Virus record (IMG/VR): IMGVR_UViG_3300047094_001400
Span: 1-64,000 of that record
Strand: one strand, 5' to 3'
Length of the DNA: 64,000 nucleotides
DNA from: a virus
Under the pieces are notes generated by a model. It was not told the DNA's origin. It worked only from the letters and a program-made list of their open reading frames with translations, and did no database searches. Made by a program: the position numbers and the translations under genes. This document shows positions 2,865-61,043 of this stretch, piece by piece (position 1 is the stretch's first letter; the number at the start of each line of letters is the position of its first letter).

Positions 2865-3020
2865 ATGAAAATGTCCGTTTCAAAAATGAAAATGAGTACT
2901 GGTGGCGGTAAAAAGACTGCTAAGAAAAGTGCTCCTGCCAAAAAATCTGCTATGAAAAAAGTAGTAGGCATGGCAAAAAAAGCCATGAAAGGCGGTAAAA
3001 TGTCCGGTGGAATGTACTAA
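2865..3020 (+). CDS. Small Lys/Met-rich basic protein
   Basis: A 51-residue frame in the gap between portal and scaffold: short, extremely basic (about 16 lysines) and rich in Met, Ala and Gly, with KKTAKK- and KKSAMKK-type repeats like histone tails. There is no hydrophobic segment. A second ATG six bases in could also start it. It ends 20 bases before a strong terminator, so it is the last gene of the portal transcript. Its charge suggests nucleic-acid binding or packaging with the DNA, but no family is recognised. Two other small basic genes follow in the head module (7432 and 7747). Confidence 0.6.
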   Translation: MKMSVSKMKMSTGGGKKTAKKSAPAKKSAMKKVVGMAKKAMKGGKMSGGMY

Positions 3021-3040
3021 GACTACCAAAACGAAAGAGT

Positions 3041-3074
3041 GCCCGGGCTTCAGCAACCCGGGCATTTGTTTTTT
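3041..3074 (+). terminator. Intrinsic terminator after the portal operon
   Basis: Seven-base GC stem GCCCGGG / CCCGGGC with a 9-base loop, followed by ATTTGTTTTTT. It separates the portal transcript from the strongly promoted scaffold/capsid transcript. Confidence 0.85.
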
Positions 3075-3090
3075 ATAGCATGTCCACTTT

Positions 3091-3122
3091 TTTGTACGAA
3101 CAAAAAATTATATATAACTTTG
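3091..3122 (+). promoter_or_regulatory. Bacteroidota-type promoter for scaffold and capsid
   Basis: TTTG at 3091-3094, 20 bases, then TAACTTTG at 3115-3122, a full match to the TTTG-N19-21-TAnnTTTG promoter of Bacteroidota. The expected start is about 3127, giving a 15-20 base leader to the ATG at 3143. A perfect 8-base inverted repeat (ACTTTGTC at 3117-3124, GACAAAGT at 3135-3142) overlaps the -7 box and ends at the base before the ATG; it could be an operator or a 5' hairpin. Confidence 0.75.
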
Positions 3123-3142
3123 TCTAAAATAATGGACAAAGT

Positions 3143-34895: not shown

Positions 34896-35285
34896 ATGAA
34901 AAAAGTAATGTTAGTTTTGAGTTTAGTTGTGTTCACGGGATGTGCCACAATTACGAGTTCCACCAAGCAGGAGGTTTCTATCAATGTAAAACCTGACCAT
35001 GCTAAAGTTTATGTGAATGGGAACAAGGTAGGAGAGGGAAGTTGTACTGCTGAAGTTCCTGTAAAGAAGCGTAACACTATCATTGTCAAGGCGGAAGGGT
35101 ATGAGAATGCTCAAATTAAGACACAAAGACAGATTCGTCCAGGGTATTTGATTGGCAATATCGGGATGTGTTTTGTGCCTTATGTAAACTTTTTTGGCTT
35201 ACCGAGTTTAATTGTTGATGCGTGTACGGGTGCGTGGTACAAGTTGGAGGAGGATGAATACTACTTTGATTTGGATAAGAAATAA
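34896..35285 (+). CDS. PEGA-domain lipoprotein
   Basis: A 129-residue protein with an export signal (KKVMLVLSLVVFTGC, lipobox ending in Cys at 16) followed by a PEGA-like beta domain (SINVKPDHAKVYVNGNKVGE, then KKRNTIIVKAEGYENAQI). A hydrophobic segment near 90-110 (GYLIGNIGMCFVPYVNFFGL) may contact the membrane. PEGA domains in Bacteroidota are surface or periplasmic modules. The gene is monocistronic, between a minus-strand gene and the RNA pair, so it looks like an accessory gene that changes the host envelope during infection. Confidence 0.65.
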   Translation: MKKVMLVLSLVVFTGCATITSSTKQEVSINVKPDHAKVYVNGNKVGEGSCTAEVPVKKRNTIIVKAEGYENAQIKTQRQIRPGYLIGNIGMCFVPYVNFFGLPSLIVDACTGAWYKLEEDEYYFDLDKK

Positions 35286-35301
35286 ATCCTTTTTAAGTTT
35301 G
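35270..35301 (+). promoter_or_regulatory. Bacteroidota-type promoter for small RNA 1
   Basis: TTTG at 35270-35273, 20 bases, TAAGTTTG at 35294-35301: a full consensus match. It overlaps the end of the lipoprotein gene. Transcription would start near 35306, at the beginning of the structured RNA. Confidence 0.7.
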
Positions 35302-35305
35302 TAGT

Positions 35306-35420
35306 GCCTTCGGAGGCGTAATTCCGGTGTCTGTGTGGAAGCGGATATGAAAATATTTCCTGTTAGGAATCAACCCCTGTGAACAAGCATCTTCCACCTC
35401 TGCTTGTTCCGGGGGTTTTT
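35306..35420 (+). ncRNA. Kissing-hairpin small RNA, copy 1
   Basis: Structure read from sequence: a GCCT-AGGC mini-hairpin at the 5' end; hairpin 1 (TCCG 35323-35326 / CGGA 35342-35345) with GTGGAAG in its loop (35335-35341); the conserved bases CGGATA-GAAAA; hairpin 2 (TTCCT / AGGAA, 35357-35369); then an intrinsic terminator (AACCCC ... GAACAAGC / GCTTGTTC ... GGGGTT and T5). The terminator loop contains CTTCCAC (35391-35397), the exact complement of the hairpin 1 loop. Copy 2 keeps the same plan with compensating changes. Could be a trans-acting small RNA or a ligand-sensing attenuator. It does not match any RNA family I know. Confidence 0.7.
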
Positions 35421-35448
35421 AATTTACAGAAAGTCATGGGAAATTTAC

Positions 35449-35456
35449 TATATTTG
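35449..35456 (+). promoter_or_regulatory. -7 box for small RNA 2
   Basis: TATATTTG, a perfect -7 element, placed just before the second RNA. No TTTG at the expected distance, so this promoter is weaker on paper than that of copy 1, or copy 2 is made by read-through. Confidence 0.5.
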
Positions 35457-35460
35457 TACC

Positions 35461-35564
35461 CGTACAATGGTACTATCCGGGTGAGAGCGGATAAGAAAAA
35501 TTTCCTTTTAGGAAACCAAACCCCTTGAAGCAGGTGACTCTCACCACCTGTTTCGGGGGTTTTT
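35461..35564 (+). ncRNA. Kissing-hairpin small RNA, copy 2
   Basis: Same architecture as copy 1: hairpin 1 here has a six-base stem TATCCG (35474-35479) / CGGATA (35488-35493) with loop GGTGAGAG; hairpin 2 TTTCCT / AGGAAA (35501-35515); terminator AACCCC ... GAAGCAGGTG / CACCTGTTTC ... GGGG and T5. The eight-base terminator loop holds CTCTCAC (35538-35544), the exact complement of GTGAGAG in loop 1. Compared with copy 1, two of seven loop-loop pairs and most of the upper terminator stem have changed on both sides. The T-run ends 15 bases before the GTG start of the next gene, so it may control that gene. Confidence 0.7.
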
Positions 35565-35579
35565 AATTTTAAGAAAGCC

Positions 35580-35948
35580 GTGGAAGAAAAATTGCCAGAA
35601 ACAACTTCTCAAGATTCTGAAATCATTGAGTTCAAAATTCCTTTAAGTGTATTGGAATCTTGCAAATTAACAGGAGAGCAAAAACTTATATGGCTTATAG
35701 CCAACAAGTTAAATGAAAAAGACAAAGAGTATGATGTTCAAATACTTGAGCATTTTTTGTGTATCAGCAAACACAGAATTTATAAGTTAGTAAACGATAT
35801 GATTCGTGATGGGTATTTGAAAAAGATAACAACAACCAAGGAAATAAAAGATATGATATGCACTGAAAAGGAAACAGAATCCTATTTGGTTGCCATTGTT
35901 CCTTCTATTTTAGACGATAATTCAGATAACGATTCAGCTCCATTTTAA
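35580..35948 (+). CDS. Winged-helix replication-module protein with SSB-like tail
   Basis: A 122-residue protein, GTG start. It has an acidic N-terminus, a helical DNA-binding-like region (LTGEQKLIWLIANKL, then DVQILEHFLCISKHRIYKLV and MIRDGYLKKITTT, the helix-turn-helix and wing), and a C-terminal acidic tail NDSAPF. The tail resembles the tip by which SSB recruits partners, and the primase-helicase and the SSB-like protein of this phage end the same way. It heads the replication operon and directly follows the terminator of small RNA copy 2, so its expression may depend on that RNA. Confidence 0.65.
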   Translation: MEEKLPETTSQDSEIIEFKIPLSVLESCKLTGEQKLIWLIANKLNEKDKEYDVQILEHFLCISKHRIYKLVNDMIRDGYLKKITTTKEIKDMICTEKETESYLVAIVPSILDDNSDNDSAPF

Positions 35949-35953
35949 TAGTT

Positions 35954-37030
35954 ATGGTACATATAATTCATTCTCAAATAGCGGAAGTTTATGGAATAGA
36001 AGAATCCATAATCCTGCAAAATATTTTCTACTGGGTAAGCAAGAATAAGGCTAACCAAAAAAACTTCCATGATGGGCACTATTGGACTTACAATAGCAGT
36101 CAAGGATTAACAGAACTATTTCCTTTTATGGCTCCATATCCGAAAGGCGAAGATGGACTTCCTGATACTTCAAAGCCAAGGACAAACCAAAGGATTAAAC
36201 GGGTTATCAAGAATCTTATTGAGGCAGGATTGATAAAATCCGGAAACTACAATAAGACAGGATATGATAGAACTGCATGGTACACACTTACAGAACAAGG
36301 TGAAAACTTATTCAACTCAATAAATTGTACCATCCATGGTTCAAAAATGAACAATGGAAAGTTTGAAAATGAACCACCTATACCAAAAGAATACACAGAA
36401 GAAAACAAAGAAGAAAAGATTAAATTACATTCCCCTCAATCTTCTGAAGAAGATTTTCAGGGTGAAACACAGGAAGATTTTTCTTCTCAAAAAGGGCAAG
36501 AAGAAATTCAGGTTGAAGAGAAAAAGAATACCAACCCATACCAACTCACTGATTCAGATATGAACCTATTGAAATCCTATCAAAAAGGATTCATTGAAGA
36601 AATTGACAAGGTTGCAAAGGTAAAGTATGACAAAAAATTAATTCACTTGTGCAAAACATTCAACCTGCTGAACAAAGACAGAGAACTATTGAAAGCCATT
36701 TACATTTATTTCAGAACTTATCGTGACCATTTTGGAACATATACAACTGAAATCCGTTCATTCAAAGCCTTGAACGAAAAGATTGAAAAATTACAGGCTG
36801 AAATGATTAGAGAAACCAAAAGGGTTATCAAAGAATCCGGTAGTGTAGTATTGCACCAAGACAAAGAAAAGAAGATTGCCGTTATCTATAAATCAGATTC
36901 AATGAAAAAAGATGATAAAAACAGGATTGATGATTTTAAGAGAATCGGGTACACTGTTTTTGATATGTATAAAACCATTGGTCACATAGAATTAAAAGAC
37001 CTTGGCTACCATGTACAACATGTATATTGA
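35954..37030 (+). CDS. Winged-helix replication initiation protein (probable)
   Basis: A 358-residue protein. The N-terminal domain (about 1-120) has the layout of phage replisome organisers: an N-terminal helical start (HIIHSQIAEVYGIEESIILQ), HDGHYWTYNSSQGLTELFPF, then RTNQRIKRVIKNLIEAGLIK and a beta wing ending YTLTEQGENLF. A low-complexity Glu/Lys/Gln linker follows (about 135-190), then a helical, basic C-terminal part possibly contacting the helicase. It lies six bases after the winged-helix gene and just before the primase-helicase. A role in loading the helicase at the origin is inferred. Confidence 0.65.
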   Translation: MVHIIHSQIAEVYGIEESIILQNIFYWVSKNKANQKNFHDGHYWTYNSSQGLTELFPFMAPYPKGEDGLPDTSKPRTNQRIKRVIKNLIEAGLIKSGNYNKTGYDRTAWYTLTEQGENLFNSINCTIHGSKMNNGKFENEPPIPKEYTEENKEEKIKLHSPQSSEEDFQGETQEDFSSQKGQEEIQVEEKKNTNPYQLTDSDMNLLKSYQKGFIEEIDKVAKVKYDKKLIHLCKTFNLLNKDRELLKAIYIYFRTYRDHFGTYTTEIRSFKALNEKIEKLQAEMIRETKRVIKESGSVVLHQDKEKKIAVIYKSDSMKKDDKNRIDDFKRIGYTVFDMYKTIGHIELKDLGYHVQHVY

Positions 37031-37032
37031 TA

Positions 37033-38844
37033 ATGGACACATTTGAAAGCCATGGCATAATCGGAGTAAACTACTCAAAACTGGAAGAACAACTTCTGCT
37101 CTGTCCTGTTTGTAGTCATACCCGTAAAAAGAAAAAAGACAAGTGCCTTGGCGTAAATGTCGGTAAAGGAGTTTGGGGTTGTAATCATTGCGGTTGGGCT
37201 GGAGCATTAAAAAAACAAATGGAATTTATACCACCTGTCAGAAACTATTCATTGCCTAAAGTTGAAGTACACCCTATTTCAAACAAGGCTCTCATTTGGT
37301 TTGAAACAGACAGAGGTATAAACAGACAAACCCTGCAACACTTCAAAGTATTCTCCGATAAGAAATACTTTTTTCAGAAAGGAGATATACAAGCCGGAGA
37401 ATCCTCCTGCATTGCATTCCCGTACTTCCGTGATGAAACAATAATCAACTGCAAATATCGTGATGGCAGAAAGCGTTTTACCCTTGAAACAGGTGCTGAA
37501 TTAATAGCCTATAACGAAAACTCAATTAGAGGCTCAAGGGAAGTAGTTATTGTGGAAGGTGAACTCGATGTATTATCCGTATGGCAAAGTGGCTACAAAG
37601 GCGTTATTTCACCTCCTAATGGGGCTAATTTGAATAGGAACAACCTTGAATGGTTGGATAAGATTTATGACCTGTTTGAAAATATTGATAAAATAATCAT
37701 TGCAGTTGATAATGATTCTGCAGGAGAAAGTCTCAAGTTAGACCTCATTCGTAGATTCGGTAGCGAAAGAACTTGGGTTGTCAGTTGGATAGATGATTGC
37801 AAAGATGCCAATGAAGTACTCTTAAAGTACGGAGAAGAAGCGGTAAGAACCTGCATTAAAGAGGCAAAACAACTGCCCTTGGAGGGAATTGTTGAGCATG
37901 ACAAGTTAGAAATGTCCGTGCTGAACTACTACGACCATGGACTTCCGCAAGGATTGACTGTAAGTTGGACTAAGTTTAGTGAAAGTTTTAAGGTTATTCG
38001 TGGGGAGTTTATGGTGGTTACGGGAATACCTTCTCACGGGAAGTCTGTATGGAGTGAAAACTATATGATTCAGTTGGCAAGGTTACACGATTGGAAGTTT
38101 GGGGTATGCGTGTTTGAAAGTGATCCGGAGATAATGGCGGTAAACCTGATTCAGTTACTTATCCGCAAGAAATTCTTTGGCAACAACAGGCTATCTGAAA
38201 TGGAAAGGGACTATGCCATGGACTTTATTAAGAATCATTTCTACTTTTTTGATGTGGGAGAGGGAGGAAATACCTTGGATAATATCCTGAAACGAGGGGA
38301 AGAGCTTGTCAGAAGGCACGGAATTGATATGCTTTACATTGACCCTTGGAGTTATGTGGAAAAGGACAGAGGTAGAATGAATGATTCAGAATACTTTGAG
38401 GCACAGTTGCCAAAAATGAAGTCTTTCAGGAGAAGAAACAACTGCTCAATACTTTTGGTAGCACACCCAAGGAAGATGGACAGGGATAAAAATACCAACA
38501 AACTACGGGTTCCTGAGCCATACGATATTGGGGGAAGTAACCAGTGGTATGGAGCACCCGATAAGATTATCAGCGTGTATGCAAACTATTCTGAAGATGG
38601 GGTAATTTTGAACCACACCATATACATTCAGAAACAAAAGAAGTGGTGGCTTGGTAAAAAGGGAGAGGTAGAGTTTAAGATGTTGGACCATGGAGAGTTC
38701 ATAGAGTTGCAGGAATATAACCAACGGGATATGAATCAGCCATCTTTTAAGGAAAGACAAGCGAATGATGACACTATGAAATCAGTAAAAGTAGAGGAAG
38801 AAAATAATGATGACAGTATGGGACAAGATACAGCCCCTTTTTAA
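37033..38844 (+). CDS. Primase-helicase (T7 gp4-like)
   Basis: A 603-residue bifunctional replication protein. N-terminal zinc finger with CPVC (24-27) and CNHC (50-53); TOPRIM primase domain with VIVEGELDVLSVW and IIIAVDNDSAGES; C-terminal RecA-type helicase with Walker A GIPSHGKS at about 331-338, and Walker B DMLYIDPW. The protein unwinds DNA and makes RNA primers at the fork. The ATG at 37033 is preferred over an upstream TTG; it follows the upstream stop by two bases. The C-terminus is acidic and ends QDTAPF, an SSB-like tip, shared with two other phage proteins. Confidence 0.9.
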   Translation: MDTFESHGIIGVNYSKLEEQLLLCPVCSHTRKKKKDKCLGVNVGKGVWGCNHCGWAGALKKQMEFIPPVRNYSLPKVEVHPISNKALIWFETDRGINRQTLQHFKVFSDKKYFFQKGDIQAGESSCIAFPYFRDETIINCKYRDGRKRFTLETGAELIAYNENSIRGSREVVIVEGELDVLSVWQSGYKGVISPPNGANLNRNNLEWLDKIYDLFENIDKIIIAVDNDSAGESLKLDLIRRFGSERTWVVSWIDDCKDANEVLLKYGEEAVRTCIKEAKQLPLEGIVEHDKLEMSVLNYYDHGLPQGLTVSWTKFSESFKVIRGEFMVVTGIPSHGKSVWSENYMIQLARLHDWKFGVCVFESDPEIMAVNLIQLLIRKKFFGNNRLSEMERDYAMDFIKNHFYFFDVGEGGNTLDNILKRGEELVRRHGIDMLYIDPWSYVEKDRGRMNDSEYFEAQLPKMKSFRRRNNCSILLVAHPRKMDRDKNTNKLRVPEPYDIGGSNQWYGAPDKIISVYANYSEDGVILNHTIYIQKQKKWWLGKKGEVEFKMLDHGEFIELQEYNQRDMNQPSFKERQANDDTMKSVKVEEENNDDSMGQDTAPF

Positions 38845-39375: not shown

Positions 39376-40680
39376 ATGCAAATAATAGACTTATTTTCAG
39401 GGGTAGGTGGTTTTAGTATTGCAGGACATCAACTTGGTTGGGAAACCATTTTGTTTTGCGAGAAAGAACCATTCCCACAAATGGTATTACGGGAGAGATT
39501 TCCAGGAGTACCTATTTTTGACGATGTTTGTAAATTAACAGGAGAAAAAATCAATGGACTTATTCAATCAGACAGACCAATTATCCTCACAGGAGGTTTT
39601 CCTTGTCAACCGTTTTCAGTCGCAGGAGCAAGAGAGGGTACAGAAGATTCTCGACATCTCTGGCCGGAAATGTTTAGAATTATCAAAGCAGTCCGCCCGG
39701 ACTACATTATTGGGGAGAATGTGCCTGGATTACTTAGTATTGAAGGGGGAATGGTATTTGAACAGGTGTGCCTTGACTTGGAAAGCGAAGGCTACGAAGT
39801 CCAGGCGTTTGTACTTCCAGCTTGTGCCACAGGTGCACCGCACAGACGGGACAGAGTTTGGATTGTTGGATATAATGCCAACACCGAGAGCAAACGACAA
39901 GAATCATTCACTACAAGGGCAGAAAAGTTTCAATCACAGATTAGAACGGGGTTATTTTGCGGAGGTAGCCCTGAATGGGATATTAGTGGAGAGGATGCAG
40001 GGGCTAATGGCAACCCCGAACACAATGGACCACCTTCCGAGCCGGAGTTACGAAGCAATGAAAAAACAGGCAACAACAGGTGGCAGGAAGAACAGACAAC
40101 GCCCGAGCAACCTTCGGGAGCAGATAGACCCGTTGATGCAACAGGCATATACGGAGGCAAGGTTGGAGGCAAACGGGTTACTCCCGACACCAACGAAATT
40201 CGATTACAACTCAGCAAGAACACCGGAGAAATGGGAGGAGGACAAAGAGAAATACAAGAATCAAGGTGTGAATCTTCAATTACCTCTAAAGCAAATGGCA
40301 ACATTGGGGTTACTCCCGACACCACAAGTAATGGACATACGGGAGGATATTCGGAAACCAGAGGAGAGGTCGGAGAAAGCCAACAAAGGGGGTTGCTCGA
40401 ATCTTCGGGAGTCAATTCAGGTAACTACTGGGGAAACTGGCCATCTATCTCACCTTTTCACTCTGGATATGATGGGATTTCCGAAGACATGGTGCGACAT
40501 ATCCGAACCACTCTTGCAGAGGCTGGAGAAACGCCTGAAAACATTGAAGCGTATATCCGAAAAGAAACCAACTGGCTCAGGAAACAAGCAATAATGGCAG
40601 CAGGAAACGCAGTAGTTCCAACAGTAGTTTTACAAGTTATGAAAGCAATACAGAATCATTATGAAAATACTAACGATTGA
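39376..40680 (+). CDS. DNA cytosine C5-methyltransferase
   Basis: A 434-residue DNA methyltransferase with the C5 motifs in order: motif I IIDLFSGVGGFSIAG at the start, motif IV GGFPCQPFS with catalytic Cys near 77, motif VI GENVPG near 114, motif VIII RRDRVWIVG near 157, and motifs IX-X near 410 (AAGNAVVPTVV). Between about 170 and 360 the chain is low complexity (Asn, Gly, Glu, Thr). This part is also read in the +1 frame by another protein-like ORF (39554-40594), so its composition may be forced by double coding. Phage methyltransferases usually guard phage DNA against host restriction. No partner endonuclease gene is seen next to it. Confidence 0.9.
   Translation: MQIIDLFSGVGGFSIAGHQLGWETILFCEKEPFPQMVLRERFPGVPIFDDVCKLTGEKINGLIQSDRPIILTGGFPCQPFSVAGAREGTEDSRHLWPEMFRIIKAVRPDYIIGENVPGLLSIEGGMVFEQVCLDLESEGYEVQAFVLPACATGAPHRRDRVWIVGYNANTESKRQESFTTRAEKFQSQIRTGLFCGGSPEWDISGEDAGANGNPEHNGPPSEPELRSNEKTGNNRWQEEQTTPEQPSGADRPVDATGIYGGKVGGKRVTPDTNEIRLQLSKNTGEMGGGQREIQESRCESSITSKANGNIGVTPDTTSNGHTGGYSETRGEVGESQQRGLLESSGVNSGNYWGNWPSISPFHSGYDGISEDMVRHIRTTLAEAGETPENIEAYIRKETNWLRKQAIMAAGNAVVPTVVLQVMKAIQNHYENTND
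39554..40594 (+). CDS. Overprinted methyltransferase-associated protein nested in the C5-methyltransferase gene
   Basis: A 346-codon open frame lies wholly inside the methyltransferase gene, in the +1 frame. It is not noise: it holds CALTWKAKATKSRRLYFQLV, HRTDGTEFGL, MPTPRANDKN, LLPTPTKFDYNSARTPEKWE and MMGFPKTWCDI, a set of motifs I associate with a conserved protein or C-terminal region found with phage and prophage cytosine methyltransferases. Three separate PTPxxxD units recur at regular spacing. Both frames thus look selected. The start is uncertain (ATG at 39554 is the first). It might be translated from within the methyltransferase message or joined to it by frameshifting. Confidence 0.6.
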   Translation: MDLFNQTDQLSSQEVFLVNRFQSQEQERVQKILDISGRKCLELSKQSARTTLLGRMCLDYLVLKGEWYLNRCALTWKAKATKSRRLYFQLVPQVHRTDGTEFGLLDIMPTPRANDKNHSLQGQKSFNHRLERGYFAEVALNGILVERMQGLMATPNTMDHLPSRSYEAMKKQATTGGRKNRQRPSNLREQIDPLMQQAYTEARLEANGLLPTPTKFDYNSARTPEKWEEDKEKYKNQGVNLQLPLKQMATLGLLPTPQVMDIREDIRKPEERSEKANKGGCSNLRESIQVTTGETGHLSHLFTLDMMGFPKTWCDISEPLLQRLEKRLKTLKRISEKKPTGSGNKQ

Positions 40681-60286: not shown

Positions 60287-60892
60287 TTATTGAGGATTAT
60301 TATACTTCTTATTTCTAAATTTCCTATTGGCTCTATCCCTTCTTATATCATCCAACTCCTTTTTCCTTACAACTTCAATCGCTTCGCTTACAGTAAGTTT
60401 CATTGGTTTTAATTCACCATTTATTTTGTACCTCCTTTGCCATTTTTTTGCACCGTTACCACCAAGAACCCTAAGAACTTTTTTCAAACCTTTGCCACTA
60501 TCCTTATTTGAGGTTTTTTTCTTTCTCTCCTTTTTCAAAACGACTATCACCCCTCCTGTCTTTTGAACATAAACCCTTTGGTTCTTATCCAACTTATCTT
60601 TTCCTTCTAATGTGTAATCTTTCTTTTGAACATTATACACATTGTCAATAGAGTTTATCAGTTGATACTCATGGATAAGCATATCTTTCTGATTGTTAAA
60701 GTATTGAACAACCTCGAATTTGAAAGACTTTGCCCCAAATTTATCAAAGTCCCTTTGTAACTTGTAGTTGTGATGCTTCTTGTTAAACAGGTCTTCGAGG
60801 TGCTGCTTTTTTCTTGCTTTGAAATCCTTAGTTGAGCCAAAGTACACCCTATCGTTTATGATGTTGGTAATTTTGTAAACTGAAAAGTCCAT
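60287..60892 (-). CDS. GIY-YIG homing-type endonuclease
   Basis: A 201-residue protein with an N-terminal GIY-YIG domain: VYKITN and RVYFGSTKDFKARKKQHL (the VYK/VYFG pair replacing GIY/YIG and the catalytic Arg region), then FDKFGAKSFKFEVVQYF and a YN pair. A very basic linker and a C-terminal DNA-binding region (KWQRRYKINGELKPMKLTVS-type AP2-like end) follow. Typical free-standing phage homing endonuclease. The start at 60892 is chosen because an upstream extension would run through the terminator of the RNA at 60903-61006, which lies in its leader. Confidence 0.8.
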   Translation of the reverse strand: MDFSVYKITNIINDRVYFGSTKDFKARKKQHLEDLFNKKHHNYKLQRDFDKFGAKSFKFEVVQYFNNQKDMLIHEYQLINSIDNVYNVQKKDYTLEGKDKLDKNQRVYVQKTGGVIVVLKKERKKKTSNKDSGKGLKKVLRVLGGNGAKKWQRRYKINGELKPMKLTVSEAIEVVRKKELDDIRRDRANRKFRNKKYNNPQ

Positions 60893-60902
60893 AGTACTGT
60901 AT

Positions 60903-61006
60903 AAAAATGAAAAACCCTCAAGGGGTGGTGCGTCCTCAAGGGTTTCTAATACCGGGTAAAAGCCGATAATTTCTTTAGTTACACATTGTACGCACCACCG
61001 TAACAA
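60903..61006 (-). ncRNA. Kissing-hairpin RNA / leader, copy 3
   Basis: Minus strand. Hairpin 1 GTTAC (61004-61000) / GTAAC (60982-60978) has GGTGGTGCGT (60999-60990) in its loop. An intrinsic terminator ACCCTTGAGG / CCTTGAGGGT (60943-60934, 60923-60914) with T-runs has the loop ACGCACCACC (60933-60924), a perfect ten-base complement of loop 1. Two G-T pairs in the terminator stem form only in the minus-strand RNA, confirming the direction. Same architecture as the RNA pair at 35.3-35.56 kb though sequence differs. It ends 11 bases before the endonuclease ATG, so it may also control that gene. Confidence 0.6.
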
Positions 61007-61011
61007 CGCAA

Positions 61012-61043
61012 CAAAGTTATTTTCTCCTTACGACAATTCCAAA
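61012..61043 (-). promoter_or_regulatory. Leftward promoter for RNA copy 3
   Basis: Minus strand: TTTG (61043-61040), 20 bases, TAACTTTG (61019-61012), a full consensus match. Transcription would begin near 61006, at hairpin 1 of the RNA. Confidence 0.7.

Follow-up and report, generated by a model that had tools for sequence, protein, structure and literature searches.

A structured phage RNA whose terminator loop is complementary to an upstream hairpin loop: a putative self-terminating leader of early operons

Phage replication genes are known to be controlled by RNA alone in only a few systems, and early gene control in Bacteroidota phages is little known. The phi29 pRNA, like the RNA described here, carries two complementary loops in one phage RNA, but its loops pair between molecules to build the packaging ring, and it is not a leader with a terminator. 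The put RNA of phage HK022 binds the zinc-binding domain of the RNA polymerase beta' subunit. This structured RNA of ∼70 nt forms two stem-loops and is located directly past an early phage promoter (PMC9378689). In the satellite phage P4, the early transcript is terminated by RNA-RNA pairing with release of a short stable RNA, read-through serves the genes behind, and the Rfam C4 and isrK models are used for CI/seqA relatives (PMC10111431). In the Gifsy-1 prophage, one promoter gives a terminated short and a read-through long isoform of IsrK (PMC4825925), and the pT181 repC attenuator is a replication-gene leader with an intrinsic terminator, in which a kissing hairpin makes the initial contact (PMC4878617). 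In the open-access literature, other literature being outside our scope, we found no phage leader terminator described with a loop that kisses an upstream hairpin.

The window analysed here, 64 kb of a 70,472-base IMG/VR phage record, contains two tandem units, A (35294-35420) and B (35449-35564), between a lipoprotein gene and a replication operon. Both consist, in this order, of a TAnnTTTG promoter element, a small 5' hairpin, hairpin 1, an A-rich linker of 8 nt, hairpin 2, a linker of 3-4 nt and an intrinsic terminator; its 7-nt loop and the loop of hairpin 1 are exact reverse complements (Table 1). By analogy, such a leader would work most like P4 CI/seqA control, the Gifsy-1 IsrK isoforms and the pT181 attenuator, and it sits like HK022 putL. 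With P4 it would share RNA-RNA pairing in a terminated early phage transcript, a short RNA and read-through; however, CI is released from the transcript by processing and has its binding site elsewhere, whereas here both partners lie inside one unit of ∼100 nt and one of them is the terminator loop. A short terminated and a long read-through RNA from one promoter would recall IsrK, but IsrK acts at the translation of an upstream ORF, and the leader has no Rfam isrK match. The pT181 attenuator is likewise a replication-gene leader with an intrinsic terminator and a kissing hairpin, but it has an antisense RNA and an anti-terminator sequence. Here, a search of the opposite strand in 12 members of the family, over the interval 40-350 nt past hairpin 1, found no TAnnTTTG element (other promoter types are not excluded), and no conserved antiterminator structure is visible in an alignment of 14 members.

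The resemblance to put is one of place, a structured RNA right after an early phage promoter, and would suit a mechanism in which the nascent RNA binds RNA polymerase and confers resistance to its own and later terminators. However, put is free of terminators and acts on later ones (PMC9378689), whereas the leader ends in a terminator of its own, the stem of which is within the covarying structure; the put criterion of a two-stem RNA of ∼70 nt without its own terminator is unmet, and we regard such antitermination as very unlikely. As far as sequence can tell, the leader does not qualify as a C4/isrK RNA or as put, nor, by the antisense criterion, as a pT181-type attenuator.

Anatomy of units A and B

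An earlier note on this DNA had proposed the plan of promoter, hairpin 1, hairpin 2 and terminator for two adjacent units, with a terminator loop complementary to the hairpin 1 loop in each. Its coordinates and anatomy hold in the sequence, the folds and a scan for complementary loops, and the complementarity is exact in both units. Two details had to be revised. CGGATA, taken there as single-stranded, is actually the 3' arm of hairpin 1 and covaries with the 5' arm (variants in relatives: CGGATA, AGGATA, CAGATA and AGAATA), and the GAAAA taken as conserved belongs to the A-rich linker, which is fixed in length but not in sequence.

Table 1. Predicted RNA elements and neighbouring genes in the window
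Feature	Position	Strand	Basis or remark
Unit A, promoter -7 element TAAGTTTG, Bacteroidota TAnnTTTG type	35294-35301	+	sequence; position common to homologues
Unit A, optional 5' hairpin (GCCTTCGGAGGC)	35306-35317	+	sequence; centroid fold
Unit A, hairpin 1	35327-35348; kissing loop GTGGAAG 35335-35341	+	fold, loop-complement scan, alignment
Unit A, hairpin 2	35357-35369	+	fold
Unit A, intrinsic terminator	35372-35420; kissing loop CTTCCAC 35391-35397; T-run 35416-35420	+	fold, scan
Unit B, promoter -7 element TATATTTG	35449-35456	+	sequence
Unit B, optional 5' hairpin (GTACCCGTACAATGGTAC)	35456-35473	+	sequence; fold (part)
Unit B, hairpin 1	35474-35493; kissing loop GTGAGAG 35481-35487	+	fold, scan, alignment
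Unit B, hairpin 2	35501-35515	+	fold of transcripts, alignment
Unit B, intrinsic terminator	35519-35564; kissing loop CTCTCAC 35538-35544; T-run 35560-35564	+	fold, scan, alignment
First gene behind unit B, weak Rep3/winged-helix similarity	35580-35948	+	GTG 15 nt past T-run; opens replication operon
Replication initiation protein, operon behind unit B	35954-37030	+	
DNA primase/helicase, operon behind unit B	37027-38844	+	
Unit C, promoter -7 element TAACTTTG	61012-61019	-	sequence
Unit C, hairpin 1	60984-61008; loop GTGGTG 60993-60998	-	sequence, fold
Unit C, hairpin 2	60950-60968	-	sequence, fold
Unit C, terminator	60910-60945; loop ACGCACCACC 60924-60933, complementary to GGTGGTGCGT 60990-60999	-	scan, fold
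GIY-YIG nuclease gene behind unit C	60287-60892	-	ATG (60892) 17 nt past T-run

Compared with dinucleotide shuffles, folding gives z = -3.6 for unit A and -4.6 for unit B, with none of 200 shuffles equally good. Our scanner, which requires a terminator loop with at least 7 nt complementary to the loop of an upstream hairpin, recovered both units and a third site in the window, unit C. Its background was 0.07 strong-terminator sites per shuffled window, and 7 sites were found in 2.02 Mb of unrelated viral contigs.

The small lipoprotein gene adjoining the units (34896-35285, + strand; PEGA domain, phrog_6823) recurs near homologues. Behind unit A, an ATG at the same distance as the start codon behind unit B opens an ORF of 30 codons (35436-35528, + strand), which crosses hairpin 1 of unit B and has its stop codon inside the unit B terminator; it may be left over from the duplication or encode a leader peptide.

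Homologues and covariation of the loop-loop pairing

No Rfam 15 family matched the whole window at the gathering cut-off, and units A and B searched separately gave chance-level matches only; C4 and isrK had no gathering-score match in the window and were absent from the weak matches listed for the two units. DNA similarity searches of the units against INPHARED and PLSDB gave nothing relevant, and a loose pattern (CGGATA..GAAAA..TTCC) in viral contigs gave only chance matches among the matches listed. Searches of viral contigs with a terminator pattern, a hairpin-2 pattern and protein anchors, together with one phage record, yielded ∼15 further distinct homologues beyond units A-C, every one in phage sequence. 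Terminator sequences served as search patterns, and the sample is thus biased towards conserved terminators. A covariance model built from the first eleven members (R1) scores typical members at 78-116 bits.

The main group has the loop pairs GUGGAAG/CUUCCAC, GUGAGAG/CUCUCAC, GUGGCAG/CUGCCAC, CUGCAAG/CUUGCAG, GUCAGAG/CUCUGAC and CUGGCAG/CUGCCAG. A second subfamily, made up of MW202710.1 and contig L155, has a longer hairpin 1 and retains the kissing terminator, with the pairs GGACUAG/CUAGUCC and GGUUCAG/CUGAACC. In MW202710.1, a TTGGCA-17-TATAGT promoter comes first, then a hairpin 1 of ∼20 bp whose loop is GGUUCAG, a terminator with CUGAACC as its loop and a replication initiation gene; in L155, the plan stands ahead of an HNH-like gene and a replication initiation gene. 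In the public record of this phage, MW202710.1, the leader (3001-3142) has no RNA annotation. A related terminator with loop CTTGCAG, upstream of a lipoprotein gene in L124 (4015-4135; counterpart in L158), has a different 5' part without a matching hairpin 1 loop and scores 34 bits; it is a decayed or rearranged unit.

The terminator pattern matched 17 loci in 84,980 bacterial and archaeal genomes, none with a kissing loop; model R1, with which 150 of the roughly 1000-2000 candidates in each genome were scored, found nothing in three of them, and a stricter pattern found nothing in 198 genomes of one phylum. The family is thus phage-borne on present evidence. No cultured carrier is known, since no convincing kissing terminator was found upstream of related replication genes in the cultured phages checked (PJN03, Cellulophaga phi10:1, Flavobacterium hattifnatt and elemoE, Tenacibaculum JQ, Bacteroides Barc2635, Burkholderia BcepMigl, three Vibrio phages, three Xanthomonas phages, E. 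coli ZX5, Pseudomonas PAN70, Cobetia Carin1, epsilon15 and CBW1004C-Prop1).

In the alignment of 14 members, pairing over the structure with its kissing helix reaches 96.1%; shuffles give 87.3% and slid versions 34.8-54.4%. Within the kissing helix, 98 of 98 pairs can form, and four of its seven pairs show two-sided changes. Thus, the compensating loop changes first noticed between the two copies, and the upper terminator stems that are replaced yet stay paired, are confirmed and extend across 14 sequences. Ordinary terminators, common between phage genes and here with a nearly invariant lower stem, might by chance match an upstream hairpin loop. However, the scanner background is low, each of eight distinct 7-nt loops has its exact complement, and the covariation already contradicts this explanation, which we consider next to impossible. 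The earlier note would have abandoned a structured RNA had homologues lacked covarying loop-loop pairs or had a known Rfam family matched, and its claim survived on both counts. Judged from the alignment, these RNAs form a structured family of ∼100 bases that is absent from Rfam.

The next positions outside the loops pair in only 1 of 14 members on one side and 7 of 14 on the other, and stem bases covary with partners in their own hairpin. That covariation ends at the loop borders favours a kiss between hairpins over a long-range helix and implies that both hairpins form at once; the kiss appears from these patterns to coexist with a complete terminator stem. For transcripts cut at the terminator loop, RNAfold gives a long-range helix as the best fold of most members. 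This linear antiterminator helix was rejected as the selected structure, since it fails to extend past the loops in several members and its covariation ends where the loops do. The selected structure thus appears to be that of the whole terminated RNA. Linker 1 is 8 nt long in 14 of 14 members and linker 2 is 3-4 nt, length variation being found mainly in the hairpin-2 loop. The rise of an A-form helix is ∼2.8 Å per base pair. With such standard dimensions, a straight stack of hairpin 1 (6 bp), kiss (7 bp) and terminator (16 bp) would measure ∼81 Å, which the twelve unpaired nucleotides and the width of hairpin 2 would barely bridge; we infer that a kiss in cis is feasible but nearly taut.

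Genes behind the RNA and its proposed role

In typical members, 5-33 nt separate the end of the TAnnTTTG element (in L153 a near-match) from hairpin 1, and wherever sequence continues behind a member, its T-run ends at most 17 nt before a start codon. Intact units other than A precede a replication-module gene (among them one for a phrog_2509 replication initiation protein), an HNH gene or a GIY-YIG gene; unit A is followed only by unit B and the 30-codon ORF, without a replication gene. Two types of module are found behind the units, one with a small ORF, a winged-helix/DnaD-like initiator and a DnaB-type helicase or primase, the other with a ResIII-type helicase and then a VapE/BT4734-type primase. 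By sequence comparison, the first genes behind this RNA plan are mutually unrelated. The RNA was found in five of five relatives of the ResIII-type helicase from a protein search and in ten of ten relatives from the initiator alignment; these sets largely overlap the members found by pattern and give no independent estimate of the association. The lipoprotein gene was ruled out as the partner of the RNA, since G003 and G010 have it without a model match and helicase-type members precede another operon.

The units satisfy the general definition of an attenuator or leader: a promoter, a structured leader and an intrinsic terminator lie immediately ahead of a gene that reads in the same direction. 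Of the two roles suggested in the earlier note, synteny favours that of an attenuator for the gene at 35580, because homologues too sit between a promoter and a nearby start codon; the other, a stable small RNA, is compatible with attenuation as its terminated product. In the absence of expression data, we consider it moderately probable that the RNA is a cis-acting, self-terminating leader of early, mostly replication, phage operons. Transcription would start at the promoter upstream of hairpin 1, which would fold first, and its 7-nt loop would pair with the apical loop of the terminator as this emerges, so that the three hairpins form one compact kissing fold. RNA polymerase would by default halt at the T-run before the start codon and release an RNA of ∼95-115 nt, and the downstream genes would be expressed by read-through to a level that depends on the kissing complex. 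We observed the anatomy, the covariation, the leader position and the compatibility of kiss and terminator; default termination, its modulation by the kiss and the persistence of the released RNA are inferred. As no conserved antiterminator was found, regulation would come from something acting on the loops: another RNA copy, a protein or folding kinetics may compete for or stabilise them, competition by another copy or a phage protein being speculative.

The unrelated first genes behind one RNA plan and the lack of a detectable antisense promoter were counted in favour of a leader. Against it, neither a conserved antiterminator nor a switch for the terminator was identified, unit A has no replication gene behind it, and the loops turn over faster than the flanks (see below), which a purely internal brace does not obviously require.

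Another explanation is that the RNA of ∼100 nt is itself functional, as an sRNA acting in trans on another transcript, in a kissing dimer with a second copy or as a decoy for a host factor, and that the gene behind is merely reached by read-through or from another promoter. The RNA has its own promoter and terminator, its covarying structure is that of a terminated RNA without a switch, its loop pairs change fast and complementarily, and unit A lacks a substantial gene of its own. Moreover, in MW202710.1 only a few nt link the long hairpin 1 to the terminator, from which we infer that a kiss in cis would be awkward. However, a free-standing sRNA has no need of a start codon so close behind it, nor of genes that are mostly replication genes, and the constant 8-nt linker 1 is what an internal kiss predicts; we hold this explanation to be unlikely, though not negligible. 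An origin RNA or a replication primer would also explain the place before replication genes, including modules of unrelated types, but units precede GIY-YIG and HNH genes as well, one phage has two tandem copies and a distant third, and the conserved feature is a terminator hairpin. This we find hardly credible.

If the RNA is a leader, it is a compact one that follows a simple rule, a terminator loop equal to the complement of the hairpin 1 loop, before unrelated replication modules.

Loop turnover and a divergent third copy

The close relatives L161 and L261 are 97.7% identical over 2.2 kb and differ at 16 of 99 RNA bases against 33 of 1273 flanking bases. The changes in the RNA are mainly in the two hairpin heads and complementary, and the stretch between them has a single difference, so no single simple recombination event accounts for them. 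Over seven close pairs, differences affect 22% of kissing nucleotides and 36% of upper terminator stem positions; the flanks differ at 12% and the lower stem at 6%. When each base pair is counted a single time, the p value is 0.04 for the kiss and 6e-6 for the upper stem, and in L161/L261 alone 5 of 12 pairs are changed (p = 1e-5). These numbers are small, some members occur in more than one pair, and most of the flanking sequence is coding.

A scaffold that is kept while both heads swap complementarily hints at a specificity code, and the fast turnover suggests, as a hypothesis, that the identity of the pairing matters, which fits a trans-acting element better than an internal brace. The loops could be an RNA identity code in the control of phage replication: leaders released from one phage genome would recognise nascent leaders of the same loop type through loop-loop pairing and determine their termination, which would control copy number and exclude co-infecting relatives. 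This idea, for which the head changes of L161/L261 relative to their flanks are the supporting sign, is tentative and rather improbable at present. If true, it would push close relatives to new, still complementary loop pairs, and turnover reflecting such exclusion would mean RNA-based specificity in Bacteroidota phages.

The third copy in the window phage, unit C (61019-60910, minus strand), is divergent, with a loop-loop match of 6-10 complementary bases. It was found both by the loop-complement scan and by the covariance model; on its own, the model gives only a weak score (26 bits, E = 0.002 within the record), and a 10-nt complement site occurred in none of 30 shuffled windows. For the three loop pairs of the window phage, computed duplex energies are -7.8 to -9.2 kcal/mol for cognate and -2.0 to -4.6 kcal/mol for non-cognate combinations; by this calculation, the three pairs are orthogonal. 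Natural, mutually orthogonal kissing pairs on one scaffold make cis/trans swaps direct and might serve as transcription-control parts.

Elsewhere in the window, past the replication operon, a cytosine DNA methyltransferase gene (39376-40680, + strand; Pfam DNA_methylase, phrog_363) is overlapped in another frame by an ORF of 346 aa (39554-40594, + strand) that matches the phage DNA methyltransferase phrog_1008 (E = 5e-22). From the sequence matches, these are apparently two overlapping protein-coding frames.
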